A stretch of 64,000 bases of DNA from Phytomonas francai (Eukaryota; Euglenozoa; Kinetoplastea; Trypanosomatida; Trypanosomatidae). The stretch spans positions 408,123-472,122 of the forward strand of contig MJCC01000012.1 of assembly GCA_001766655.1 (NCBI GenBank), in the 5' to 3' direction. The position numbers were made by a program, and so were the translations under genes. Every line of letters starts with the position of its first letter. The first letter of the stretch is position 1. The notes beneath the pieces are model-generated. The model saw only the letters and a list, made by a program, of their open reading frames with translations. It was not told where the DNA came from and did no database searches. Positions 8,554 through 62,758 of the stretch are shown here, piece after piece.

Positions 8554-10887
8554 ATGAAAACACACCCATCTTCATCTATTAATGGTGAGGGCCATCAGCT
8601 CCGCGTGGAGCTTTTCCCTCATGCTCAGGTGGTTGAGGAGATGGCCCACGTTCTGAATCCGGCAAGCTCTTTGGAAAGGTTACTTATGGCGCTTCCCAAA
8701 CTTGACCTGCACTTCCACCTAAATGGGAGCATCTCATCCGTCATTTTGGAGCATATGAGGCGCCTCAGCGCGGCTTCAATCAATGGAGTGAAATCCGAAG
8801 ACTCGATCGATGCTCATAGCGCTGCACCCAAGGATGACCCTTTGTCAGGGCTCAACTCCGCAACGAAATTGTCGAGCGCAGCACTTTCCGGGCAGAATTC
8901 TTCATCGGTTTTGAGCCCGTCTCCACTGATGGCTTGCGTTGGGCTCAAGGACAATGAGTCAAGCTGCATGAGCCCCAAGGTTCGAATGCTAACTTCTTTT
9001 GAGATGTTTGACGAAGTTTACAGGATCATGACCAACTTGATCTTCACACGACTTGCGGTGCAAGACATATTATGGCATGGCGCCGCTGAGAATGTATTGG
9101 TACTTGAGATACGTACGTCGCTGCGGGATAAATTGCGGTGGGGCATTTTTCAGCCGGATCCTGCCGAGGCGAGTCTCGAGAAGGCGACGAATCAGGAAGG
9201 CGAACCCAGTAAGGAGGATTACCTGTGGACGGTTATTAACACCGCTGAGCACGTACTACGAGGTGGGGTTGTCGACCTCCACACCGGCGCGTTTTGTGAA
9301 GCCTTCACGCAGTCCGACCTCCTCGACTACGCCACTTCACTCCGTGAGGACACGACGGACGGGCGCATGGCGCGGTGGTGGAGCTCCTTTGAGGCGCTTT
9401 ATGGCGGCCTACGCTACGCCCCGGTCCGTCCCTCGCCCCGTTCGGCGGCGATCGCGGCCTGCGAAGGTGGGGTGGCGGCGCCCCAGACCGTGCGCCTGCT
9501 CGATCACCTGCACGGGCACCTGTGCGGCCGGATGCACGTGCGCCTGCTCGTCTCCATGAACCGCGGGGCGCCGGCCGCGGGGTCCTGGCAGGCCCTCGAG
9601 CTCGCGGCCCGCATCCAGCGCGCGCAGCTTTGCCGCCTCCACGCGTGGCTGTCCGACGCGCCGGAGGGGGGGGAGGCGTGGGGCCCCCTCCCGGATGCGG
9701 CGGCCTGGGCCCGGGCCCTTCTCCCCCCCGAGGTCGCGCGGCGGCTGCGCACGACCTGCTGGGTCACCGGCCTGGACTTCTCGGGGAACTGCTATAAGGG
9801 GGCCTTCGAGGACTTCCGGCCCGCCCTGCTCGCCGCGCGGGGGCTTGGCCGGGGGAAGGGCGGGACCCCCGTCGAGGGGGCCCTGCGGCCGATCCTCGCG
9901 GTCACCCTTCACGGCGGCGAGAAGCCCGACCCGGTGGAGCTCGCCGCGATGGTGGACTACCACCCCGACCGCTGGGGGCACCTCGTCTTCACCGACCCGG
10001 ACTCCCTGCATCGCATTCTCCTGGCTGGCGACCCGATCGAGCTGTGCATCACTAGCAATATCCTATCCTCCGGCCACCTCGACGTCGGGCAGCACCATTT
10101 TGCCGGCCTGATGGCCCGGGCGCGGCGGCTTCATCGCGGAAGCGCGGACACGGTTGGCCTCGGTAAGGGAGCCACACTGGTGCAGGGGCTGCTCGACGCA
10201 CGGAGCTACGTGGCGGCCCAACACGACCGCCTGGATCGCCGTGGCCGCCGGTATCGCAGCCCGCATCGCGCGCGCCGGTCGCACGCCAGGGATGTTTCGC
10301 TCGAAGAGGGGTCAGCAAACGAGGAGGCTGGGACGGCAGTGTTGGCGACCATACCAAACATCTCCATCCACACCGACGACCGTGGCGTCTTCGATATCAC
10401 CCTCACCCACGAGCTTTGTACGATACTCGAGCATCCTGATGTACTCGGCGATCGCACGACGGCGGAACGGCGTGTGGTGGAAGCCATGTGGCGGTTGGAG
10501 CGCTTGGCTATCACCCATGTATTTGAACTCCCATGGCCCATTTTCCTCATCCTTGTCGCGGCGCGCATGGACGCTTTTCCGGATCCGAAAAGCGGGAGCA
10601 GCGAGGCCTTTTGGTGCAAAAGCGGTGACCCGCTCAAGGCGAACAGCGTGAAATGTGAAGAGTCGGTGTTATTGCGAGTCGTATCCCGAAAGCTCTCCGA
10701 GGTACAAAATTGGTCTGAACTCAAAGAAAATTGGAGCAAGTTTGAGGAGTACATTGTGCTTCAGCAAGAGTCCGAGAATGGGGGTGCAGGGAACCCCTTT
10801 GGCGAGCTTTGGAGCGGTGTGGAGTGGGTGTGGCTGACGCAGTGTTTTGACGATTTTTACACAACCGAAAATATCGTGTACAGCTAA
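8554..10887 (+). CDS. Adenosine deaminase-like metal-dependent deaminase
   Basis: The 777-aa protein has all motifs of the adenosine/AMP deaminase superfamily: DLHFHLNGS (H53, H55), TLHGGE (H453, E456), DRWGH (H476), a TSN motif in CITSNI, and SIHTDDRGVFDITLTHE (D608, D609). These correspond to the zinc ligands, catalytic Glu and His, and paired aspartates of adenosine deaminase. It is about twice the size of ordinary ADA because of long insertions: a Ser-rich block after the first motif (about residues 70-140), a GC-rich insert near residues 290-440, and a basic one near 525-585. Substrate is uncertain: adenosine, N6-modified AMP (ADAL-type) or AMP are all possible. No signal peptide or membrane segment is seen. 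Purine salvage is the plausible context. Confidence 0.85.
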   Translation: MKTHPSSSINGEGHQLRVELFPHAQVVEEMAHVLNPASSLERLLMALPKLDLHFHLNGSISSVILEHMRRLSAASINGVKSEDSIDAHSAAPKDDPLSGLNSATKLSSAALSGQNSSSVLSPSPLMACVGLKDNESSCMSPKVRMLTSFEMFDEVYRIMTNLIFTRLAVQDILWHGAAENVLVLEIRTSLRDKLRWGIFQPDPAEASLEKATNQEGEPSKEDYLWTVINTAEHVLRGGVVDLHTGAFCEAFTQSDLLDYATSLREDTTDGRMARWWSSFEALYGGLRYAPVRPSPRSAAIAACEGGVAAPQTVRLLDHLHGHLCGRMHVRLLVSMNRGAPAAGSWQALELAARIQRAQLCRLHAWLSDAPEGGEAWGPLPDAAAWARALLPPEVARRLRTTCWVTGLDFSGNCYKGAFEDFRPALLAARGLGRGKGGTPVEGALRPILAVTLHGGEKPDPVELAAMVDYHPDRWGHLVFTDPDSLHRILLAGDPIELCITSNILSSGHLDVGQHHFAGLMARARRLHRGSADTVGLGKGATLVQGLLDARSYVAAQHDRLDRRGRRYRSPHRARRSHARDVSLEEGSANEEAGTAVLATIPNISIHTDDRGVFDITLTHELCTILEHPDVLGDRTTAERRVVEAMWRLERLAITHVFELPWPIFLILVAARMDAFPDPKSGSSEAFWCKSGDPLKANSVKCEESVLLRVVSRKLSEVQNWSELKENWSKFEEYIVLQQESENGGAGNPFGELWSGVEWVWLTQCFDDFYTTENIVYS

Positions 10888-15589: not shown

Positions 15590-16731
15590 GACCGCCATAT
15601 AAAAGAGGCTTCCAAGAAAGAGAAGATAATGAAGATTTTCGTTTTGTTGTGCTTTCTTTTTTTTTTATGTGTGTGTGTGCGTGTGCGTGTTGATGGGGGA
15701 TGCGAAGGGAGAGGACAGGGGATTCTTTTTACTTCTGATTCTTGAGACGCCTACGTGCAGAATGCTTTCTTTTGCTGTTACTCATCCTGCGTAGAAAGCC
15801 CTATATCTGTGTATTTTCTTATTCATCCTGAAATCAAGGAAACGGGTTAATCCTTTTTTCTTCGGTTTTTTTTTTTTTTGGGGGGGGGGGGGGAGTATTG
15901 AGATTTTGATTATGTGCCCATTTAATTAACAAAAGCCTTATTTATTATGTACCCACCCTTCTACCTGTCTCCCTCCCCTCCCTTTTCCCCGCCTCCCAGT
16001 GCGGACTTAGTGCTCTACTAAATGCGGATACGTTTTTGATGCAATGAATTGAGTCCATTTTTTTTCTTAATTAGTAGACCTTGGTGCTTTCTTAAGACTC
16101 AAGGAAAGTTCGTCAAAACGAATATTGCTTCAAACACTGCAATTGGTATCCGCTTTTCTGTCTAATCACTTTCTTCATTAAGGTGTGGAGAGGAGGCAAT
16201 ACATTGTCGACCTTTACAGTGGTCCCACAAATTTATTGAAAATCCTTAAATCTTGCTTTTACATCCTTATTTCCAGAAGAAGTAAAAGACTTAGAGCGAA
16301 TAACAGGTATTAAGAGAGCCAAAGGCACTTTCTTGACCGAGTTCGTCTTTTCCTGCACTAAATCCGTGCGCAATACGGTATTTGCCTCGTTATCTCTGCG
16401 TATTTTCCTTATGTCTTTCCCTTAAATGCATATAAATGTTGCAATCTCTTTTTTCATTATTTCGTATCCTCTTTTATCAGTGAATATATAATTATATATA
16501 TAAATAAATATATATAAATATATATTAACACATGTTGAAATCCCCCTTTCGTTGAAAATCGATATTAGCAGGCTAAGTTCATCCTTTCTTTCCTCCTCGG
16601 AAGAGAGCGGAGGTATTTTACAGACAATAAGCATCTCCTCTCTCCCCCCACCCCTCTCCCGGGGAAAAAAAAAGGAAAAAAAGGACCAGATAATAGGGTG
16701 AACAAAAAGAACACACAAACAAGAGCGAAAC
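15590..16731 (+). other. Intergenic region with T14G14 tract and AT repeat
   Basis: No gene was seen. A run of 14 T at 15866-15879 abuts 14 G at 15880-15893. A TA-rich repeat spans about 16487-16525. Pyrimidine-rich stretches at 16579-16600 and 16632-16660 precede the next gene and could direct trans-splicing. Confidence 0.5.
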
Positions 16732-18964: not shown

Positions 18965-21900
18965 ATGCTTCGCCGTCGCGTCCTTAGAGTACGCATGGCG
19001 TGCTGGAGCGTCCCGCGCTCGGCGCTGTCGCAGTCGCGGCGCGGGGCCGTCCTCGACCGCACCACGGCCTCCCTCCAGGCCTACCACCCCCCCGGAAGCC
19101 AGGACCTGAACCTGCCCTGGTACCGCGGCCCCGCCCCCGACGTCCCCGCCGACGCCCTCCCGCTGTCAACCGCCGGTGTAGCTGTGGCGTCACCCCCCGC
19201 CCCCCCCTCCTCCCCCGTGGGCGCGGAGGCCGGGACGACGGCACCCCCGCCCGCCCCGCAGCCCGCGGCGTCCGGGCACGCGCGGGACGGCGTCCTGCGC
19301 GCGACGCCCGCGTGCCGCATGCCGGCCTCCCCCGGCCCCTTGCTCGACATCCGCATTGAGGACATCCTCAAGGTCGAGGCCACGCTCGCGTCGGAGCCGC
19401 TGCCCAAGGTGGTGCAGCTCCTGATCGACCCGAACGTGGAGGGCGTCGAGCGGATCACGGTGTCCGACTTCGCCGCGATGCAGCCGAAGCGGCAGCTCAC
19501 CGCGCTTGGTGGGAAGAAGGCGTGGCTGGAGTTCCTACTAGAAAGCCCGTACTACAAACAGGTCGTGCGGTTGTCAGCGGAGTCGCCCGCGTACGACCTG
19601 CGCGCACTACAGCAGGCAGGGATTCACACCCTCCACCAGTGGGCCGAGCGTCCGGCTACGGTGAGGGTGTCGGACCGCACCCGAAGCGCCCTCGAAGCGG
19701 CCATGGAGCAGAGCGTCTCAGCTTACATGAAGGAGGTTGTGCAGGTCGTGCGCATTAGCAATCAACACCGAGATCTACTCAACCAGTGGCTCTCGGATAT
19801 CATTGGGAAGTTTATTTTAGACTCTCTGAAGATCTCCGTTGAGTCTGCCTCCGCCGCGCTGCACAAACGTCGGAGTCAAAGCACAGGTGGGATCGAGCGC
19901 AAGGTAGGTGGAAGCGAAAGGTTAACCGATAGGGCGTCGCTATTCTCACCCAAAGGCGACGGTGGAGGTGAACTCAGTGCGCTCAATCTTCTCTTTGAAA
20001 GTGCTCATGAAGAGAGCCGTCGAAAACTCGCGAAGAGCCCCAGTGCAAACAGCAGTTCTGGAAGCAGCAGCCCAGTGCTACGTCCGGGAGAAGCCTGCAC
20101 GTTGGAGCACTACCACTTCTTCTTCCAGAAGGTTCTACAGAGTATGCAGCAGGACTATGCCTCCCAGCACGCCGGTGCTGGGGACTCACAAAGTGAAGCC
20201 GAGGTCCTCGAGGGGACCAACACCATCATAGCCACCGCCCTCACGCGGCTTCTCGAGCAGGCGGTCCAGCAAAACATCCCCGACGAGCTGAGGTTTCTAG
20301 AGGAAAACGGCTACCTTGCGCTAGATCGAGTTCCCGGGCTTCTGCGGCTGGCCGCGTCTTACCTACAGCTGCGCAGTATACCCGTCCGGCTTTTTGTTTT
20401 CCACAGCACCACAGAGGCGAGCACGCACGCGGCCGCGATGCTACCCGCCGCGTCAGAACGTAGCGGGACGGCAGGCGCGGAGGAGCCCTCGGCGAACCGT
20501 TCCATTTCCTTGGACGTGCCGGCCCCGACGTTCGCGCCAGGTACCTTTCTCTGCGGCTCTGAAAAAATGAACGTGACGCTGGGGCAGTGGACCGGCATGC
20601 CGGAACCACAGAGCTCGACCACGCCACAGTCCACGCCGGCCGCAGACCCAGTTGAGCAGGAGTACTTTTCCGTCCTCCGTCGCATGCGGCATCATATGGA
20701 TCAGCTGTCCATGATGTCCATAGACGATGTTCTCCAGAGGGCTGAGTGGCACGGGGCGAATGGATTCAGCGCGACGGAGGCGCTTGGTATGCGCCAGCTC
20801 TTTGGTCCTGCAAAACTCGTCGAGGATCGTTTGGTATCTCTGCTGCACTACAAACCCGCCTCTTCCGAGAACTCAATACATTTTATCGAGGCCGGGTACA
20901 ACTCCGGGAAGTCCGCGCTCTTGGAGCGTCTTAGTGGACGAATGCGTGCTGGGGAGAGGGCCGTTATTATTCGCTACAGCAGCACCGCGACGCCTTTTAT
21001 TCCGGACTTGGACGATCATCCTGTTGCCTTCGCGTCGCGCTTTTGGTTTCGCGTCGCATTGGCACTCTGCCCGTACCTCATCCGTACCGAGGGGCTGTTT
21101 AGCCGCGCACCGCGATGTGTGTTTTGGTGGGGAAATGCGAATAACTGGTCCTGGGAAGCCATTCAGCGTTTAATTCCGTCGGTCGGTCACTCTGGGTGGG
21201 TCCGGCGTGGCGGTGGTGAACATGCAGAGGCTGCCAAGCGGTTGTTGATGGAGCTTGGCGATGAGCCACAGCTTGGCGCGATTCTCGTCGATGATATGGA
21301 CCGTGTTCTTGATGCGATAGAGGCGAAGTGGGGGCCGCTGTGCGAGCAAGACTCATCTTTATCCGCCATATCCTTTGAGGAAGAGTTCACGGAGGCTGCG
21401 GACACCGCCGAGGACGAAGTGAGGCCCCGCAAGAGAGGCAAGACAAGCAGCAACGACGACAACGGCGAGGACAGCGGGGCGGTAGAGGGGAGGCGCGGCG
21501 CCACGAAGGCTCAGACCACCGAGGAGACCAGGATCGTGACCGAAGCACGTCGGCTGGCTCTCACAGAGGCTGAGCAGCAGCGGCGGCGGGAGTTGACCCT
21601 TGGGCTTAGCGGGGGGAGCAGCCTCGCGGGGACCGCCGTGGGAGATATGGTGACCTCGGCGCTAAGCAGGGTTACCACTGCGCTGGGCCAGGTCGATCTG
21701 GTTTTCACTGGGTCCCGCCTGAGCGCGTTCTTCCAAATCAGGTGCCCGGTCCCGGTCTTGCGCTACTTCGTCCCGATCGCAAATGGCGTGGGACTGCAGC
21801 AGCGGCTGCGCGTACTCCCGTTGTTGGCGGTCCTCCACGCCCTGCACCTGCGCTCGCGACTGGAGATGCCCGGCCTGCTGTACGAAGTGGTAAAGAACTG

Positions 21901-24367
21901 CCCTGGATTGATTGGCAGGGCGTTGGATCTTTTCCTGCTAGGGCGCGCGGCTCTACTTGACCTGCACCGTGGTCCCCCGCGCTTTTCGACACGCATGGTG
22001 GCGGCTTCGAGCGGTGGCCCTGTCAATACGACGTTAGGGGCCTCGCTGCTTCACAGTTACCTGCCGCAGGACCTTTTTGCCGAGCTTCCTATGCGCAACC
22101 ACCTCCTCCGCAACCCCCGACACGCACGGCGGCGTCTGGTAGAGTTGCTCCAGTCCCAGCTTAGCAGCCCAAGCGGCTACCTTAGCACGGGTATCGACAC
22201 AACCGCGCAGGATGAGCACGATGGCCTAGTGACCCGGCACAACCACACCGTCTCGCAGGTGCACCCCTTTGCCTTGCTTACCATCTTTGCTTACCAAGAC
22301 GCGCTCATGGACTCCTCGGCGACTTCGGCGGCGTCAAATCTTGGCGGCGGCGCTGCCACTTCAGCCCCATACGCGAACGAATCAAAGTTGGTCCGGGCCT
22401 GGGCTGAGGTCTGGGCTGAATACCGCAGCGTTGTTGGTGAGATCGCCACCACACCGGTGCGCAAACGTGACGCGATGCGGGTATTACTGCATGGCGCCCT
22501 CCTCCTGCGCTCCGCCGCCCTCGACGTCGCGCAGCTCGACCTCAACCTGAAGCTCCCCCCGTACGGCTTTCCCCTGCTAGCGACGCCTGTTCGTCTGAAA
22601 GGTAAGCACGCCCATGCCCCCGCGCCCGGCGGCGCGAACGGTGTGGACGTTGGTGCGGCGACGTCCGAGAGCGTCAAGAAGGCCGTCGCCGCGTACAAGT
22701 CCTTCTTCGCTCAGCACGGCGCACGACAGCGGGTGTACCCTTTTCGCCCGATGGTGGGGCTCAACCTGGGCTGCGAGGTGGTCCTCATGGCAGGCGCCAC
22801 GATGGGGCTCTACGACCTCGTGACAACCCCGGCGGAGCTGCGCGCCGCCGTCGGCCGCTTCGCCGAGGCCCTGCTCGGGGTGCTGCACCTCCTCGAGCGG
22901 CAGGTCCTGGCCCCGGAGAAGCTGCGACACGTGCAGTACGTCTCGGTCGTCTCCATGGATCAGCCCAAGGCGGCGGTGCCGAGCCTGGTCCCGATGCCTT
23001 TGTCGTTCCCCGCGGCCGAGATCACGGTGCCCTACTTCCTCGACTACCACGCCGTCTTCGAGGACGGCTTGATGGACCGGCTCCAGCGTCTGCAGGAGCC
23101 GCTCGGGATCACGAAAAAGTTCCGGACGCTGCACGACCTGATTGATGAGCTGGAGCGCCGTTATCAGGTCTCGGTGGTGCAGGAGGTAGTCGCCTCACAC
23201 GAGGAGCTGGAGTCGTTGTTCTCACCGACGCTGCTTCAATTAGTGCCAGACGCAACAGTTCTGCCGGCGTACAAGTCACCTGTAATCTCTGTAGATGATC
23301 TCATGGCAGAAGCCATGCTGAAGACCCATGACCGCGACGATGTTGCTGACAGAGATATACAGGTCAGTCTTCTCAACGCTGACGATGAAGATGACGACGT
23401 GCAAGAAGCGCTGCAGGATGAGGAGGCCCAGTCGGGCGCAGAGGTCGACGACATTGCTAGTGATCGACTTCTCTCGACCGATAGTCGCGCCTCATCACGT
23501 ATCCAGCAAGAGGTTCTGCTAGCTGATAATGAGGGCTTGCACGAGTCCGCGGAGCTGCTCGATGCGCTGCTAAACGATCAACTCGATGAGCTTATGGATA
23601 AGAGTCAGCAGAAGGCCGCCATGGCCACCACCGCGCAGGAGCTCCATCAGGACCTTCTCACCGAAAACGCCCTCAACTATAACCCAGCCCCGTCCTCCGC
23701 CTTCGGCACGGCGGCGAGCGGCAAAACGGGAGGCGCCCCCGCGGCGGGGTCGACCCTCAACCACCCCGCTAACAATCGGGGCCGAAGTGACATGGACGCC
23801 CTCGCGTGGCTGCACGATATCATCACCCCAGAGTCCCCTCTCACAGGTCTGGGTGGCGGCGCCACGCCAGCAAGCACCGCGCCTGCGGAGGCGGCGGCCA
23901 CCACCACCATAGCGCCAGACGGGCCCAACGGCCGCCCGGAGGCGGTTGAAAAGGGGAACCCCGCGGACGGTGAAGGGGGCCACGACGGAGAGGAGGAAAA
24001 GGGCTGGGCCGAGGCCCTGGCGGCCGGCGGCGTGGAGAACACCATGAATGAGGTCTTCCCGGTGACCGCGGCGAAGCGGAGGGCCCAGGTTGCCCGCCGC
24101 GCTGCCACCCCACACCGGGCCGCCAAGCGTCGCGCGCGCGACGAGGTCGCCCTGGATATTCAAAAGCTATTCAAACAAGCCGTGAATCGTCGGAACCAGT
24201 TGCGTAAAGAGACCATTAGCGCCGGCGCGAAGTCGTCTAAGTCCAAAAAAACCCTCCCGGGAAAGGGTGAGGAGAATAGTGGTGGTCGCCGGAAAGTAGC
24301 AGCAATGGGTGTAGCAAAAGGTAGGCCTCCCAAAAAAGTAGCAGCTGCTACCCGACGCAAACGCTAA
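18965..24367 (+). CDS. Large P-loop ATPase-core protein, paralogue A of a tandem pair
   Basis: The 1800-aa protein starts with MLRRRVLRVRMACWSV, a likely mitochondrial presequence and the first ATG after the predicted acceptor. An N-terminal module (about residues 140-290) contains DFAAMQPKRQLTALGG and an armadillo-like helical run. The core has a Walker A motif EAGYNSGKSALL (K649), a Walker B motif AILVDDMDRV (D776, D777) and a sensor-like strand VDLVFTGSRLSAF (about 910). This resembles AAA/STAND/ORC-type ATPases, though no family is certain. A C-terminal module (about 1150-1440) contains LLHGALLLRSAALD, YGFPLL and FSPTLLQLVPD. Long acidic and disordered stretches follow. The C-terminus is very basic and includes an AT-hook-like KGRPPKK. 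The next gene is its paralogue, which lacks the ATPase core. Function unknown; a mitochondrial nucleic-acid role is an inference. Confidence 0.85.
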   Translation: MLRRRVLRVRMACWSVPRSALSQSRRGAVLDRTTASLQAYHPPGSQDLNLPWYRGPAPDVPADALPLSTAGVAVASPPAPPSSPVGAEAGTTAPPPAPQPAASGHARDGVLRATPACRMPASPGPLLDIRIEDILKVEATLASEPLPKVVQLLIDPNVEGVERITVSDFAAMQPKRQLTALGGKKAWLEFLLESPYYKQVVRLSAESPAYDLRALQQAGIHTLHQWAERPATVRVSDRTRSALEAAMEQSVSAYMKEVVQVVRISNQHRDLLNQWLSDIIGKFILDSLKISVESASAALHKRRSQSTGGIERKVGGSERLTDRASLFSPKGDGGGELSALNLLFESAHEESRRKLAKSPSANSSSGSSSPVLRPGEACTLEHYHFFFQKVLQSMQQDYASQHAGAGDSQSEAEVLEGTNTIIATALTRLLEQAVQQNIPDELRFLEENGYLALDRVPGLLRLAASYLQLRSIPVRLFVFHSTTEASTHAAAMLPAASERSGTAGAEEPSANRSISLDVPAPTFAPGTFLCGSEKMNVTLGQWTGMPEPQSSTTPQSTPAADPVEQEYFSVLRRMRHHMDQLSMMSIDDVLQRAEWHGANGFSATEALGMRQLFGPAKLVEDRLVSLLHYKPASSENSIHFIEAGYNSGKSALLERLSGRMRAGERAVIIRYSSTATPFIPDLDDHPVAFASRFWFRVALALCPYLIRTEGLFSRAPRCVFWWGNANNWSWEAIQRLIPSVGHSGWVRRGGGEHAEAAKRLLMELGDEPQLGAILVDDMDRVLDAIEAKWGPLCEQDSSLSAISFEEEFTEAADTAEDEVRPRKRGKTSSNDDNGEDSGAVEGRRGATKAQTTEETRIVTEARRLALTEAEQQRRRELTLGLSGGSSLAGTAVGDMVTSALSRVTTALGQVDLVFTGSRLSAFFQIRCPVPVLRYFVPIANGVGLQQRLRVLPLLAVLHALHLRSRLEMPGLLYEVVKNCPGLIGRALDLFLLGRAALLDLHRGPPRFSTRMVAASSGGPVNTTLGASLLHSYLPQDLFAELPMRNHLLRNPRHARRRLVELLQSQLSSPSGYLSTGIDTTAQDEHDGLVTRHNHTVSQVHPFALLTIFAYQDALMDSSATSAASNLGGGAATSAPYANESKLVRAWAEVWAEYRSVVGEIATTPVRKRDAMRVLLHGALLLRSAALDVAQLDLNLKLPPYGFPLLATPVRLKGKHAHAPAPGGANGVDVGAATSESVKKAVAAYKSFFAQHGARQRVYPFRPMVGLNLGCEVVLMAGATMGLYDLVTTPAELRAAVGRFAEALLGVLHLLERQVLAPEKLRHVQYVSVVSMDQPKAAVPSLVPMPLSFPAAEITVPYFLDYHAVFEDGLMDRLQRLQEPLGITKKFRTLHDLIDELERRYQVSVVQEVVASHEELESLFSPTLLQLVPDATVLPAYKSPVISVDDLMAEAMLKTHDRDDVADRDIQVSLLNADDEDDDVQEALQDEEAQSGAEVDDIASDRLLSTDSRASSRIQQEVLLADNEGLHESAELLDALLNDQLDELMDKSQQKAAMATTAQELHQDLLTENALNYNPAPSSAFGTAASGKTGGAPAAGSTLNHPANNRGRSDMDALAWLHDIITPESPLTGLGGGATPASTAPAEAAATTTIAPDGPNGRPEAVEKGNPADGEGGHDGEEEKGWAEALAAGGVENTMNEVFPVTAAKRRAQVARRAATPHRAAKRRARDEVALDIQKLFKQAVNRRNQLRKETISAGAKSSKSKKTLPGKGEENSGGRRKVAAMGVAKGRPPKKVAAATRRKR

Positions 24368-25560
24368 AGAGTTCATACAGGGAAGCCGGGAAGAAAGGGG
24401 ACGCACGATACCTCTTCGTTTGTGTACCAGTTTACTAAACGATAAAGTACATCCATAGGACGTTATTGAGCCCTATTGGATACACCCTTAGGAGGTGTAT
24501 CTGTTTCCTCCGTGATTAACCCTATTTTCTCTTTTAGTTCCTTTCTCTCTTTGCACTTGCTACCAAACGGGGCGGGTGGGAGGGAAGGTCATGCTCCTTA
24601 TTACCTTATGCTCTGGTTTCAAATCCATATGGAATTGCTATAGAAGCACTTCTCCACACCAAAAATTAACTCTCCCTTTTGTAAGGGAGACTAGGGCGGA
24701 ATTGTTGGATGATTTATCAAAGTATATTTTTTAGTTATCTATTTGTAACTTCGTTTAGCTTGTGTCATATGTGCAGCTGCTGGGGTGAGGGTGGGGGGCA
24801 TAGAAACAAAAGGAAGGGTTCATAATAAATGAGATTGTATCAAATAAAAATAGTCTGTATCGTGCCTTTTTTACTTTTGGAGGGTTGTTAGTTGGTTTAT
24901 TGTATGATTTATGTGTGTTCTTTTACTTCCCCCGTCCCCCCCCCCCTCTCTCTCCACCCTGCTTCAAGAAGTTTTTCCATGATATGGATCTTAACTCTGT
25001 CGTTACCATATCCTACCATATTCCCCATGAGCAATATCATTAGATATATTTGTAACCTTATAGAATTAGAAAGGAGGATTTGAGGCGTGCAAGATCAATA
25101 TTTTGTGAGACATGAGCCGCTATTGGCTATGGGTAGGTCTCTCAAGTCTTGTGTTTTTTTTCCCTAAATCATATTTTGATTTGTTATCATGTCACGTTAC
25201 TTGGCTCCTCCCCTCTGTTAACTACTACATTAGTTGCTCATAAGAGGGGTAAAAATCCTACACATAGAGAAATAAATTCTACGGTATAATTCGTTGAGAA
25301 CAATTTATGTATCTCTTTCTTTCGGTATAACACCGAAAAAGAAAAAGATAGAGGTAAGAGGAAAAGTGTCAAGCACTTTTTCAGTATTTTTAGATACTTT
25401 GCTTGGGGAAGAGGCTAGCGTCCTTGATCATCTTTTGAAATGTAGTCTGCCGAGTAAATGAAACGCACCCCACCCTTTTTTCCACCCCTTGTGTAGATAT
25501 TGTAGATTTTGGAAGCACAGCACACACATACACACGCATATATATAGGGAAGGAGGAAGC
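24368..25560 (+). other. Intergenic region between the ATPase-family paralogues
   Basis: About 1.2 kb of AT-rich DNA with C- and T-rich stretches near 24930-24960. No gene or sequence shared with the paralogues was noticed. A TA/CA-rich simple sequence precedes the next start. Confidence 0.5.
25466..25496 (+). promoter_or_regulatory. Predicted spliced-leader acceptor for paralogue B
   Basis: A C/T-rich tract ends in GTGTAG at 25496. The first ATG after it is 25561, the MLRRRV start shared with the upstream paralogue. This supports 25561 over the internal ATG at 25778. Inferred. Confidence 0.5.
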
Positions 25561-28500
25561 ATGCTTCGTCGTCGCGTGCACAATGTCGCTATTAGTAAGC
25601 ACCCTATTCATCATTGGGGGCCCTTCGCTAGCTCGGTGACGCCACCCACAACGGGGGCGACGCGGGGCCTGTTCCTCCCGTTGCGCAGGACCGCGGCGCT
25701 TTTTTCCTGCACCCCCTCGCTACGGGCCCCGTTGCAGTTCCCCAAAGCCCGCCTCGCCCCCTCCAAAGTCGGCAGGGATGTCCCCAGTCGCGCGGAGACG
25801 ACGCCCCCCCCCCCCCCCCGCGGCCTCGTCTTCGGTAACGACGGGCCGGCCCGCCGCGCTGCCGGCAAACCCGTACGAGTGCCCTGTCGACGCTGTGCTC
25901 GAGCCCAACCTCGCCGGGACGACCGGTGCCCCGCCGTCCACGCTGCGGGAGCTCGTGCATCTCTTGTTGGATCCCTCGGCGGCGGGGGTGGAGGAGGTCG
26001 GCCTCGGCGCCTTTGCCGCGATGGTGCCAAAGCGACAGCTCGCCGCTGTGGGGGGGTGCAAGGAGTGGCTGGAGGTGCTCCTCGGGAGCGAGCACTACCA
26101 GGCCTCCAAGGACGCCCGCGCGTTGCGCCTGGCCGGGATTGTTTCCCTCGGACAGTGGGAGGCGCATCGAGACCGCGTGGCGATATCCGCGTACTCGCGG
26201 GGCCTGCTAGAGCAGGCATACTACACCATCACGCGGAGCCCCAAACAGCAGCAAGGGAATGAAGTGCTGGAGTGGCTCTCCAAGACTATTCACCGCGCAA
26301 TCGTTGAGGAGCTCATGCCTTCATTGTCTGGTGAAGCCTCCTCGAAGGGGTTATCGGGTAGCCAACAGCAGCTCGTAATGCCACTCCTGACCGCGGCAGC
26401 CTCGATCACGGGAGCGGGGGAGGGAAAAGGAGCCGGCACGGGAAGCGTGACTCCTCCCGTAGAAGGGGCTGCCGTAGAAGAAAGCATTAACAACACAAGT
26501 GGAAACAGTGTGGAAGTGTCAAAGCCAGTTGAAAATATTGAACAAGGCCCCAAACTCCACAAAAAGCATAGCCCTACTGTTGGGAAAGGATTATCCGAAC
26601 CTCATGACGTGACGGAGGAGTCAGCCCCACTCGCACCACGTCGGGGAAAGAAGAGGCATGCGAGAGCGTCCTACAACAAGATGAAGGAGCTGACAGTGGA
26701 AAACACACCTCAGGGTAAGGAGGACCATCGTCCTCCCGTTGAAGTGGGGGAGGAGGAGGGGGCTACCGATAACGTTTCAAAGAAAAGTCGGGCAGCGGCG
26801 TCAGCGTCAGCGCTAGCAGATCCACCTACCGCCGCAGGTGATCAAGATGATATCGATGTGCAAGAAGAGGAGGAGTACGAAGAGGTCGAAGAGGAGATTG
26901 AAGAGGAAGTCTCAGATCAGGATCTCAAGGTGGCATACGAGGGGGAAGAAGGAAGAGATACCCCGGCGGCGGCGTCTTCTGCGGGTGAGCCCAGTGCTGA
27001 TCCCAAGGCAGAGATGAAGTTGGCAAGACTAGCGGAGCTGATGCTCAGCCAATTCAACAGCGCTGACGGTTACTTGCATCTACCCGAGAAGGAGATACGG
27101 ACCGATGAAAAGAACGGGTATGTTGTGGTCATCGATGAGGACACCGCACAGGTCGATCCTCTGGGTCTTTTCAGCTCATACCACGCCGTCGAAGTCTCCG
27201 AGGAGAGCCCGATCGAAGTGCGGGCTCTCAAACAGACCTGGTCTGCCTTCAACTACCACCAGATAGCGATGGAGGAGGCAAAAGATGAGGCCACGATGAA
27301 TTTTCATCGGCAGAAAGGGGTCGATGTGCTCGTACACGGGGCGCTTCTGATGCGTGCGATCTCGCGCGGCGGCGAGATTGACCTGAACTACGCCTCTTCT
27401 CTCCCGTCCTACGGCTTTCCTTTGCTCTCCTCCGACCCGCGCCCCTTTGGAGCGAAGCGCCCACGCAGCTCACCGCACACCGATATGACATTCATGTCGG
27501 TCGACGCCGCCGGGCTGGCCTTCAAGAAGTACTTTGCAAAGAAAGAGGTCCGGGCGACGCCGTTCCGACCAAAGGTGGACTTCAACGCCGGCTGTGGGGT
27601 AGCCCAGCTTGTGGGATCCGCACTTCACCTGTACGAAACCTCGCTTAAGGAAAGCGTACAGGAGGGGGAGGTGCGGCCGCGCTTCGCGGAGGCGATGCTA
27701 GGGGTGTTGAACCTCGTGCGCAGCAAGGTCCTGCCGCGTCTGAGTTTGGTGGAGTACCACGTGATCGTGACCTCCTTGCCGGCAACGGCGGCCGGGGAGG
27801 AGTACGTGGACAACAACGAGATCATGTCGCCCACCACGATCGTGAGTATCGACCTCACGGGGCCCTTCACGAGTGCCGAACGCGCGCGCCTCGAGGCCTT
27901 GGGCGAGCCGCTTGGATTCAACGCCGAACAAATCCACGAGTTCACGTGTGTGGAGGACATCATCTCTGAGCTCGAGCACGCCGGCGTGTCCGTCGTGCAT
28001 GACCTGCTGCAAAACCGCGATGATCTGGAGTCTTTGTTAACGCCTACTCTCGTCGAGCTGCTTCCGGATGAAAACGCCTCCGATAACAACGAGGCTGCAG
28101 CCGAAGCTGAGGACGAGGAACCAGCTCCGGAGGAAGAGGAGGAAGAGGTCGAGGAGGAGGAGGAGGCGGAGGAGGAGGAAGAGGAGGAAGAAGACGCGAC
28201 CCCCACAGCGCCGCCGGCCGTGGCGGCGGGTAAAAAAGAGCACGCCTTCACGACAAGCTCCGGCAATCACCACAACGCGAACAACAGACAGCGAAAGGGT
28301 AGTGGGCCCGTCGCCGCCGCGCCGCCGAGCGCGGCGCACGAGCCCATCGACGAACTCACCCAGGAGGAGGACGAGCTTTACCGCCGCATGCTGGAGGAGG
28401 AGCTGGAGGAGACCCCTGAGGGGAGGGGGGCGGCGGGGAAGAAGGAGCCCACGCCTGCCCCCCGTGCAGGCCCCGTCCAAGTGAAAGGGCCCGCATCGGT

Positions 28501-28978
28501 CACCGCCGCCGAGGAAGAGGAGGAGGAAGAGGTGGTGCGGGCGCCCGTCCTCCCGAAGGCCGCGCCTGGTCGAAAGGCCGTCCCGATCCTCGCCACGGCG
28601 TCCGCGCGGCGCCTGGGGCGGGCCCCCGTGAGGACGGGCGTGAGCAAAGTCGACGAGGTAGGCGAAAAAAGCGCGCCCTCGACGGCTCCGCGGTCCGAAC
28701 TGGCCCTGCCGAAGCGTTCGATCGGAGGAGGGCTCGGCGCCCAGCCTCTGGAGGGGGCTGTCACGCAGGATGGGTTCCCACATCGCCCGCCCCCGCGCTC
28801 AGGGGGCCCCCTGAAAGAGGAGGGAAGGGAAGGGTCTTACCATGGCTCGAATAGCGCTGTAAACCCGCCGATTGAGAAAGTTGCGCACGCAAAGGACGCC
28901 CACGCCGCGCGGCCAGTCCCCATCGAGAACCAAGAGCAGTGGTTTAAGAAGAAACCGAAGCGGCGCCACTTCCCCTAA
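25561..28978 (+). CDS. ATPase-less paralogue B, with an apparent frameshift in a C16 tract
   Basis: The start at 25561 encodes MLRRRVHNVAIS, matching the first residues of the upstream paralogue. The frame then runs into 16 consecutive C (25804-25819), and the long downstream frame is shifted by one base; a tract of 15 C would make one continuous ORF of about 1138 codons. Downstream, the N-terminal module (AFAAMVPKRQLAAVGG) and the C-terminal module (VLVHGALLMRAIS, YGFPLL, LTPTLVELLPDE) align clearly with paralogue A. The roughly 600-residue ATPase core is absent and replaced by acidic, disordered sequence with long Glu runs. The tail ends in a basic KKKPKRRHFP. The break may be a sequencing error, a polymorphic tract or a real inactivation. 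An internal ATG at 25778 would give 1066 aa without the presequence. Confidence 0.8.
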
Positions 28979-32847: not shown

Positions 32848-33720
32848 ATGCACTCTCCTCCTACTGAGGATGATATCGCTTCGATCCCCTATGTTGACGA
32901 TTTCATGCTAGAAGCCCTAAAGGAGGCCCAGTGCGCCCTGGAAGAAGAAGAGGTTCCTGTTGGTGCAGTAATCGTCCCCCTCTCCACGCATCAACAGTAC
33001 TGGGAATATGCTATGAGGGAAAGAGGCTGTTCAATGACAGACAAAGACAAACAGGATGGGCATCTTCCGCAGACCATGGGCACCCGTAAAACAGGTCTGA
33101 GTGCTTCTGGTTCGTCCCTGTCTATCCGCGATGGGAGGTGTGCGATTTCACGGGGCCGGAACGCCACGAACCGTCTGCACCACGCACTTGCGCATGCCGA
33201 ATTTATCTGCGTGGAGGACCTTCTACGGGCATCACGGTGCGGGGAGGAGGGTGGGGTTGGGCAGGACCCCCCTCGCGAGCTCGATTTCGCTGGTGAACAC
33301 TGGGAAAACGGCATCACGGATCTCTCAAAATATGTCCTGTACGTGACGGTGGAGCCCTGTATTATGTGCGCTGCATTTCTCCGCTACAACCGCATTGCGA
33401 AAGTGTTCTTTGGATGTCCAAACGTGCGATTCGGCGGCAACGGGTCGGTATTGTCTCTCCAAGAGCCCAACCCTGGCTCTGGGAATCCCAAGGGTATGGC
33501 TAGCGGCCTGAACGGAGGTGAGGAGTGTGGGGATGGGGAGGGTATGTCAGAAATGAACTCCACTTTACAGACGCTGGGTTATTTTAGTGAGGGTGATCAC
33601 CGTGCGCAGGAGGCGATCGAGCTTCTACAGAAATTCTACATGAAAGAGAATCCAAATGCTCCCGATTTAAAGAGAAAACGGAAGTCCGCAGCTCCTTCGC
33701 CCCACCCCCTTTTACACTAG
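32848..33720 (+). CDS. ADAT2: tRNA-specific adenosine deaminase subunit ADAT2
   Basis: The 290-aa protein belongs to the TadA/ADAT2 family, which with ADAT3 converts wobble adenosine 34 of tRNAs to inosine. The zinc/catalytic motifs are intact: LAHAEF (H116, E118) and EPCIMC (C171, C174). An N-terminal helix and strand (LEEEEVPVGAVIV) fit the deaminase fold. Residues about 50-105 form a family-atypical insertion, and a Gly-rich insert follows the second motif near residues 205-230. The C-terminus has FYMKENPNAPDLKRKRKS; a basic KR-rich tail of this kind is known from trypanosome ADAT2, where it contributes to tRNA binding. The start is the first ATG of the frame. The partner ADAT3 is not in the window. 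A strong call. Confidence 0.93.
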   Translation: MHSPPTEDDIASIPYVDDFMLEALKEAQCALEEEEVPVGAVIVPLSTHQQYWEYAMRERGCSMTDKDKQDGHLPQTMGTRKTGLSASGSSLSIRDGRCAISRGRNATNRLHHALAHAEFICVEDLLRASRCGEEGGVGQDPPRELDFAGEHWENGITDLSKYVLYVTVEPCIMCAAFLRYNRIAKVFFGCPNVRFGGNGSVLSLQEPNPGSGNPKGMASGLNGGEECGDGEGMSEMNSTLQTLGYFSEGDHRAQEAIELLQKFYMKENPNAPDLKRKRKSAAPSPHPLLH

Positions 33721-34152: not shown

Positions 34153-34254
34153 GACAAAGGCAACGACGCAGCAGGGACAGGCTTATTGGGCCTTGACAAG
34201 CATACCAAAGGACTGGCAATGGTTAGAACGCAACATAAAGTTTGCATGAACCCC

Positions 34255-34285
<31 letters not shown>

Positions 34286-41098: not shown

Positions 41099-41670
41099 GA
41101 TTGAAAGCGGCGCGGAAACGATTCGCCTTGTGTAGCAAGAGGGTATATATGATTAGGCATTTCATTTTTTATAATCTAAAGACGTGAGAAACCCTAATAT
41201 TAAGAGTAATCGTTTAAGAACTTGGACCCCAATTTATATCTTAATTCTATTTTTGAGTCTGTTGCCCCACCTCCAACATCATTGACATAATGATGAACTG
41301 AGATGTGCTTCGATGGCCTAGTCAGTGCATCCCCCCAAAAAACGAACAGACGAAACCTGAGGTCTAATCACCACAATCTTTACATCTTCTTTCTTTTCAA
41401 CTTCTTTCCTAACCTTTTATCGTCACAGTGTGTTAGCCTATGCGTAGTTCGCAGAGAGTTCTTAGCGTCACACATTAGTTGTCCTTTCCGCCGTATCGAT
41501 ATATCCTCCCCCCCCTCCCCTGTGCGCGTGTAACGTGGCTATTTAAATATCTCTTTATATATATATATATATAACGGTCTTTGGATATCGCACCGGACCT
41601 TGCGTCGAGTCCCAACAGTTACTGTGGCCTGCCAACCCCCCCCCCCCCCCCTTTCCACACCTGCAAGGCC
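41099..41670 (+). other. Intergenic region with C16 tract
   Basis: AT-rich spacer. A CT-rich run at about 41505-41521 with AG at 41608 or 41617 may be the trans-splice signal of the next gene. A TA repeat lies near 41555-41572. Sixteen C at 41636-41651 sit just upstream of the ATG. Confidence 0.5.
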
Positions 41671-61558: not shown

Positions 61559-62758
61559 CTGAGCAATATTGGGAGGGCCTTTACGCTTGCGGCAGCCGCC
61601 TGCCTTGGCACCGCTTGCTACTTGGTTTATGGTAGCCATAACGCGCCATACTGGATTCGCACCCCGCTATTTATTCCTGAGAAGCGTTCTGAATGCGCGA
61701 AATTCAGCAATATAGATTCGTTATCGGAAAATATTCCGGCCTTTTCCGTGGTGCTGCCACCAAATGTCCCGCCGGAGCGAAGGGCGGCCGTCGCCGAAGC
61801 GTTTATGGTGCGGTGTAAGGAGGCCAGTGCGCTGGGGCTTCCCTCAAATGGGGAGGTACGCTGCTATGGTGGCTACCTGGCCAGCCTCAATTATGAGCGG
61901 AGAATTCCTAACTGGGTCCTCGAAGTCGTCGACTACCACCACCTTCGCGGGCCCTACGGGGAGATATCCCGCAGGGAACAACGGGTGGAGCGGCAAGGCA
62001 ACGGAAACAAGAAAGAGAGGGAGGAGGACGGCGTAGTTTCGCGAAAACGGAGCGCTTTCTACGCGGACAGCACCGTTCCGAGCGCGTTCCGTGTACGACC
62101 CTCGGATTACACGACCGATGGCCTCCATCGTGGGCATCTCGCGGCCGCGCAGCTACACAAAACCTCGCAGGAGGAACTGGATAATACGTTCAGCATGAAC
62201 GCAAACATCATTCCCCAGGACGGGACCTTGAATACGGGGGAATGGCTACGTCTGGAAAACCTCACTCGCAAGCTGATCTGCGAGATGGGTGGGGGTGAGA
62301 GGCACCCTCAAAACGACATTTCACACGGCGGAAGCGTGGGAAAAACGGCGGGGAAGCTGTACGTTGTAAGTGGTCCCGTATTTCTCCCGATAGACGTCGT
62401 CGTCGAACGCCCAGAGGACGGGGAGGTTGGACTCGTACCTGGGGTTCGCGCGCCCACCCCTTACGTACGCAAACAAATTGTCCAGTATGAGTTAACCGGG
62501 AAAGGCCATCAGCTGGTGGCGGTGCCCACGCACCTCTTCAAGGTATTCCTGGCAGAGATTTACACTAGAAAGGGGGGGGTGCACTATGCGAGAGCGGCTT
62601 TTCTTTTCCCCAACAAGCCGATCATCGAGGAGATGCCGCTCACGCGGTATCAAGTACCTATTGAAAAGCTCGAACACGCGACGGGGCTTTTATTTTTCCC
62701 GCATCTTGATCCTTCTCAGGTCAGTGATCTTTGTCGTTCACACCATTGCGATTCATGA
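61559..62758 (+). CDS. Mitochondrial endonuclease G, start codon uncertain
   Basis: A betabetaalpha-metal DNA/RNA non-specific nuclease. The core motif is TTDGLHRGHLAAAQ (general-base His193 if counted from 61559), followed by NANIIPQDGTLNTGEWLRLE with the metal-binding Asn, and RYQVPIEKLEHATGLLFF near the end, all typical of EndoG. The usual Asp of DRGH is replaced by His (HRGH). A hydrophobic N-terminal segment (AFTLAAAACLGTACYLVYG) expected for EndoG targeting lies upstream of any ATG; the nearest in-frame ATG is deep inside the fold. I place the start at CTG 61559 (A at -3), the first near-cognate codon before that segment; ATT 61568 or an upstream exon are alternatives. The in-frame upstream stop is at 61544. 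EndoG acts in mitochondria and in death-associated DNA degradation. Confidence 0.75.
   Translation: MSNIGRAFTLAAAACLGTACYLVYGSHNAPYWIRTPLFIPEKRSECAKFSNIDSLSENIPAFSVVLPPNVPPERRAAVAEAFMVRCKEASALGLPSNGEVRCYGGYLASLNYERRIPNWVLEVVDYHHLRGPYGEISRREQRVERQGNGNKKEREEDGVVSRKRSAFYADSTVPSAFRVRPSDYTTDGLHRGHLAAAQLHKTSQEELDNTFSMNANIIPQDGTLNTGEWLRLENLTRKLICEMGGGERHPQNDISHGGSVGKTAGKLYVVSGPVFLPIDVVVERPEDGEVGLVPGVRAPTPYVRKQIVQYELTGKGHQLVAVPTHLFKVFLAEIYTRKGGVHYARAAFLFPNKPIIEEMPLTRYQVPIEKLEHATGLLFFPHLDPSQVSDLCRSHHCDS

Follow-up and report, generated by a model that had tools for sequence, protein, structure and literature searches.

Two adjacent genes in a 64,000-nucleotide stretch of the Phytomonas francai genome (contig MJCC01000012.1, positions 408,123 to 472,122, below called the window) are tandem paralogues, of which only the first contains a P-loop ATPase core. 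The pair is real and in outline largely known already, since on sequence evidence gene 1 and gene 2 are the orthologues of Tb927.8.4240 and Tb927.8.4230 of Trypanosoma brucei. Both products are probably nuclear-encoded mitochondrial proteins of kinetoplast DNA (kDNA) replication, gene 1 acting as an ATP-driven engine and gene 2 as an adapter without an engine. New here are the precise positions of the Walker residues and the degree to which they are conserved, and an AlphaFold2 model of the core for which a VIA search lists ASCE ATPases only. The extent of the deficit in gene 2, about 730 residues, is also new, as is a weak hint of a nuclease-like fold in the shared C-terminal module. According to the open reading frame (ORF) calls the genes lie head to tail, both on the + strand, with the following features.

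18965-24367, + strand: gene 1, single ORF of 1800 amino acids, orthologue of T. brucei Tb927.8.4240
19382-19915, + strand: gene 1 N-terminal module, residues 140-317, common to gene 2 (hhalign block, 33% identity)
20762-21964, + strand: gene 1 P-loop ATPase core, residues ~600-1000, from the AlphaFold2 model and VIA; not in gene 2
20891-20914, + strand: gene 1 Walker A, AGYNSGKS, residues 643-650, with K649
21278-21295, + strand: gene 1 Walker B, AILVDD, residues 772-777, with D776 and D777
21332-21649, + strand: gene 1 variable charged insert, residues 790-895, between the Walker B and sensor-1 strands
21695-21712, + strand: gene 1 sensor-1-like strand, DLVFTG, residues 911-916
22112-23269, + strand: gene 1 C-terminal module, residues 1050-1435, common to gene 2; a PD-(D/E)XK-like second half is suggested
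25778-28978, + strand: gene 2, ORF of 1066 amino acids, orthologue of T. brucei Tb927.8.4230
25925-26410, + strand: gene 2 N-terminal module, residues 50-211 (hhalign)
26411-27004, + strand: gene 2 acidic linker, residues ~212-409, where gene 1 has ~730 residues
27005-28087, + strand: gene 2 C-terminal module, residues 410-770
28088-28975, + strand: gene 2 acidic low-complexity tail, 21% aspartate plus glutamate in residues 770-1066

Homology of the pair and its T. brucei counterparts

The initial annotation described the tandem genes as homologous, and BLASTP, shuffled controls and hhalign agree. BLASTP of gene 1 against gene 2 gives 138 bits (E 1e-36) for the C-terminal module (residues 1057-1429 and 417-764) and 82 bits (E 1e-19) for the N-terminal module. 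In the control, with 200 shuffles of each gene 2 module, the maxima were 24.6 and 24.3 bits against real scores of 76.6 and 132 bits. Profile-profile comparison of the two families aligns the C-terminal modules with E 4.6e-57. With the window proteins as reference, a single hhalign alignment joins residues 140-1505 of gene 1 to 50-828 of gene 2. The good blocks are 140-317/50-211, 1050-1109/410-469 and 1132-1435/470-770, at 30-33% identity; between them 4-12% of positions match, except for three short blocks of 6, 7 and 11 pairs. One could suppose that the genes are unrelated and resemble each other by chance or low complexity, as both proteins have long low-complexity tails. However, this is refuted by the alignments, in which the real scores far exceed the shuffle maxima and the profile E-value is very low, and it has next to no probability. 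A search of the own genome with each protein recovered only itself and its partner, and the assembly (17.4 Mb, 37 contigs) has one copy of each gene with no third relative, in both cases among the scored candidates. Non-homology of the shared modules, the outcome that alignment might have revealed, was not seen.

The homologue searches scored the best 7989 candidates for each gene. Among these, gene 1 has 23 homologues (E 0 to 1.3e-184) and gene 2 has 18 (E 1.9e-195 to 3.7e-110); those with a named organism all belong to Trypanosoma, Leishmania, Porcisia, Leptomonas or Novymonas. The homologue of gene 1 in T. b. gambiense, P0022, has 1689 amino acids and 183.9 kDa, and that of gene 2 in T. equiperdum, P0031, has 119.0 kDa and an isoelectric point (pI) of 5.4. 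These values equal those published for Tb927.8.4240 (184 kDa, C-terminus at 1689; Miskinyte et al. 2026, PMC13191291) and Tb927.8.4230 (119 kDa, pI 5.4; Pyrih et al. 2020, PMC7314023). Besides the mass and length of P0022, gene 1 shares with Tb927.8.4240 the module order, the Walker residues and a tandem partner, its length being 1800 amino acids against 1689. Gene 2 is acidic, has two modules and adjoins the gene 1 homologue, like Tb927.8.4230; however, the window copy has 1066 amino acids from the first in-frame ATG, and its likely presequence is in another frame. Synteny, proposed for checking in the initial annotation, was found: the locus tags of the two paralogues are adjacent in four named genomes.

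In the tree of the C-terminal module, 24 gene 1 rows and 19 gene 2 rows are split by one branch (100/100), and therefore the duplication predates the sampled pairs. The tree is midpoint-rooted with no outgroup, includes the P0023 branch of length 2.15, and therefore does not tell when the core was lost. P0023 (2006 amino acids) is a very divergent relative of gene 1 with 36% identity and retained Walker residues, and its branch may be early or merely fast. A third round of protein searching, which used the gene 1 alignment, yielded 21 proteins, all known already, and no new relative; it missed P0019 and P0023, and therefore such best-candidate searches overlook relatives. There was no match in plasmid records, nor in prokaryote contigs, for which the query was the core alone and the search mode was sensitive to close relatives only. 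The jgi protein P0041 (698 amino acids, on a contig of 2412 bases) starts within the C-terminal module of gene 2 and has a tail resembling the gene 1 C-terminus (VFPVTAAKR...); it arose either by recombination between the paralogues or by a join in the assembly. The gene 2 orthologues P0026, P0027 and P0033 from T. cruzi, T. grayi and T. rangeli carry the public-record name "putative glutamic acid rich protein", so that their relation to Tb927.8.4230 is not apparent.

The statement of the initial annotation that no described system has this layout does not hold. Both members, Tb927.8.4240 and Tb927.8.4230, have been described as a pair in T. brucei (PMC7314023, PMC13191291). The mitochondrial location proposed in the initial annotation gains support, all of it through these orthologues. 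Tb927.8.4230 is the only putative partner of the DNA ligase LigK-beta found by BioID, with more than 100-fold enrichment, and is confined to the antipodal sites, whereas Tb927.8.4240, its neighbour and homologue, lies close to the disc, most likely outside these sites (PMC7314023). The later paper terms the two adjacent paralogues and places Tb927.8.4240 by expansion microscopy at antipodal sites, rings and the nabelschnur (PMC13191291). The initial annotation considered that the two proteins may form one complex; their published positions round the kDNA disc overlap without being identical (PMC7314023, PMC13191291). Tb927.8.4240 is needed for maintenance of kDNA: its knockdown leads to kDNA loss and shrinkage, growth is rescued in a kDNA-independent line, TAC102 is little affected, and the phenotype of depletion is taken as one of replication, not segregation (PMC13191291). 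No recognisable domain is reported there for the protein, residues 575-1000 of which resemble ATPases including DnaA by AlphaFold3 and Foldseek (PMC13191291). The main text of that paper uses none of the terms Walker, P-loop and AAA. Paratrypanosoma has an orthologue of Tb927.8.4240 only, and Bodo has neither gene (PMC13191291). The available portions of PMC7314023 and PMC13191291 contain no co-purification of Tb927.8.4240 with Tb927.8.4230.

A further kinetoplast-associated protein of 110 kDa, TAP110 (Tb927.11.7590), which has no detectable domains, was considered as a counterpart of gene 2. It is ruled out by its locus on another chromosome and by its charge (pI 8 versus 4.9 for window gene 2).

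The P-loop core of gene 1 and what gene 2 has instead

Conservation in gene 1 was assessed in an alignment (A1) of the window protein with 17 of the 23 homologues, which are 36-52% identical to it (P0004, P0005, P0008, P0009, P0010 and P0015 were left out). Two wider alignments contain the window protein with 20 of the 23 homologues (A3, without P0005, P0008 and P0009) and with all 23 (A4); the gene 2 alignment (A2) contains the window protein with 17 of the 18 homologues, P0026 being left out.

The Walker A lysine K649 and the Walker B pair D776/D777 were numbered correctly in the initial annotation. Positions A643, G648, K649, L774, V775, D776 and D777 are invariant in all 18 aligned sequences, and position 650 is always S or T. 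The Walker A pattern [AG]xxxxGK[ST] occurs in 18/18 aligned sequences and in all 23 homologues, where it is followed by LVDD. The Walker B pattern hhhhD[DE] is found on the third strand, with DD in every aligned sequence. The sensor strand noted earlier corresponds to a hydrophobic, sensor-1-like strand VFTG at 913-916, in which G916 is invariant (18/18) and position 915 is T in 12 sequences and A in 6. The insert between the Walker B and sensor-1 strands has no invariant columns in residues 790-895 and consists of 21% aspartate plus glutamate in residues 786-895. In the candidate lid R947 and R949 are invariant; the sensor-2-like position 985 varies (K, Y, R, S). Outside the core, 25% of the columns of block 374-480 are invariant.

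The AlphaFold2 model of the core (m409bb7b6bd19) has a mean predicted local distance difference test score (pLDDT) of 56.6, with about 75-91 in the key strands. The Walker B strand (model residues 200-207) lies in a block with pLDDT 61 to 91, the sensor-1 strand (341-347) has about 90, and most of insert 790-895 is low. All 50 rows listed by the VIA search with this model are P-loop ASCE ATPases, 17 of them TnsC, MuB, ORC/Orc1/Cdc6 or RFC and one Avs3; DnaA is not among the 50, which carries no weight. The core is thus predicted to adopt the ASCE fold, and gene 1 is best explained as an ASCE P-loop ATPase, most likely AAA+ or one of its STAND relatives. Foldseek with the whole 921-residue model gave no match at E <= 0.001 and ranked MenB crotonases first.

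Sequence profiles (Pfam; PDB by phmmer and by profile) gave only low-complexity or chance matches. In Pfam neither window protein has a match at E <= 1. At E <= 10 none of 18 gene 1 members matches a P-loop family, AAA+ profiles included, or the RHS P-loop profile PF07999. The ATPase_2 profile matches neither of the two genes; its three hits, all weak, are at other places in the genome. The best PDB profile match (E 0.0018) is located past the C-terminal module, in the acidic tail.

The usual form of the AAA+ Walker B motif is DE. Gene 1 differs from AAA+ proteins of the TnsC, MuB and ORC-Cdc6 type in having DD at this place, an insert of about 100 residues and no sequence-profile match. The STAND nucleoside triphosphatases NLRC4, Apaf-1 and Avs3 all appear in the fold lists for gene 1, and its hhhhDD Walker B and KNCPGL stretch presumably resemble STAND motifs, including GLPL. 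However, STAND proteins supply only one of the 50 VIA rows, and no STAND-type arrangement with effector or repeat domains is seen in gene 1.

One possibility is that gene 1 encodes a scaffold that binds nucleotide without hydrolysing it, with a structural P-loop, both paralogues being structural parts of the antipodal sites. The T/A alternation at position 915, the variable position 985, the long variable insert and the partial character of the published kDNA loss are in line with this. On the other hand, K649, S/T650, D776 and D777 are kept in 18/18 sequences despite the divergence of the 17 homologues, whereas without a need for hydrolysis one would expect drift at the second Walker B carboxylate. 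We consider such a scaffold unlikely.

Gene 2 has no counterpart of the core by hhalign, and an acidic linker stands in its position, both as first proposed (20% aspartate plus glutamate versus 10% lysine plus arginine in residues 175-411). Opposite some 200 residues of this linker, gene 1 has about 730 residues (~320-1049), which comprise the ATPase core and also the conserved block 374-480; this is evidence at the sequence level that gene 2 is without a whole region and not merely a motif. The core would have been lost from gene 2 after duplication rather than never gained. The Walker A pattern is absent from window gene 2 and from 16 of its 18 homologues; the two matches (AVTDAGKT) belong to near-identical T. 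cruzi sequences and lie inside the linker. A Walker-B-like string, VVVIDE, at 449 in window gene 2 is in the C-terminal module, away from any P-loop; such strings occur in 10/18 homologues, two of which have another in the tail.

The shared C-terminal module weakly suggests a PD-(D/E)XK-like fold devoid of catalytic residues. In the alignments neither paralogue has a lysine at the E-x-K place. This place reads Y-D/N-L/I/M-V/A in gene 1 and Y-E/Y-T-S/A in gene 2, where a lysine (16/18) stands two positions beyond the expected one. At the first position of the second strand, gene 1 has the acidic residue (D/E) and gene 2 has S/G.

Possible roles in kinetoplast DNA replication

The most probable scheme has three parts. 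Firstly, gene 1 would use ATP to drive a change of state on DNA or on a partner at replication sites on the edge of the disc. Secondly, the common N- and C-terminal modules may dock the proteins to the kDNA machinery or to DNA. Finally, gene 2, the acidic paralogue without an engine, may act near LigK-beta at the antipodal sites, as an adapter or scaffold. Several points weigh against this scheme. Knockdown of Tb927.8.4240 gives partial kDNA loss only, both genes are annotated as pseudogenes in T. congolense (PMC13191291), the model support for the gene 1 core is modest, and the literature available to us contains no biochemistry on the pair.

A special case of the engine-and-adapter scheme would make gene 1 the missing AAA+ initiator, similar to DnaA or ORC, that opens or marks minicircle origins. 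The 17 VIA rows with TnsC, MuB, ORC/Orc1/Cdc6 or RFC favour it, as do the published match to DnaA and the interpretation of the depletion phenotype as a replication defect (PMC13191291). In this specific form the proposal is rather improbable. Another reading, equally doubtful, combines an AAA+/STAND DNA-remodelling ATPase with a catalytically dead PD-(D/E)XK DNA-binding module in gene 1, and treats gene 2 as a duplicate that was stripped of the engine and kept the docking modules. The pair would then be a trypanosomatid mitochondrial initiator, or a minicircle-handling switch, with a dead partner. It would have been built about when the catenated kDNA network arose, from an ancestor joining NTPase and nuclease as in transposon, RHS and anti-phage proteins.

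Replication of kDNA is special to these protists. A review of the process lists UMSBP and RBP38 as origin-binding candidates, and its main text does not contain the words ATPase or AAA. With K649, D776 and D777 named, the published fold hint for Tb927.8.4240 becomes directly testable. Two questions arise, namely whether kDNA replication depends on ATP hydrolysis by gene 1 and whether it is regulated by the paralogue without an engine. If true, an active/inactive pair arising together with the kDNA network would bear on the evolution of the network.

Reading frame of gene 2 and other features of the window

Two features concern the start of gene 2.

25489-26262, + strand: ORF in another frame with MLRRRV (ATG at 25561), presequence-like stretch
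25804-25819, + strand: 16 consecutive C within the overlap of the two frames, in the N-terminal part of gene 2

The initial annotation had both genes starting with MLRRRV. This is so for gene 1; in gene 2 the MLRRRV at 25561 is in the frame of ORF 25489-26262, and the frame bearing the modules is open from 25640 only, with its first ATG at 25778. The length of the C run is probably wrong in the assembly, because 10 of 17 aligned gene 2 homologues start with MLRRR in a single frame (P0024, P0025, P0027, P0033-P0039). The sequence at 25804-25819 was analysed as deposited, unaltered. Other long runs in the window are at 34251-34271 (21 C), 41636-41651 (16 C) and 15880-15893 (14 G).

Elsewhere in the window, positions 8554-10887 give a weak, sub-threshold match to adenosine deaminase (E 9.2e-05, 22.1 bits against a cut-off of 27). 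A cytidine/deoxycytidylate deaminase zinc-binding domain (E 6.1e-15) is encoded at 32848-33720, about 4 kb past gene 2. Positions 61622-62758 encode a DNA/RNA non-specific endonuclease domain, Endonuclease_NS (E 9.6e-42), which is the domain of EndoG.
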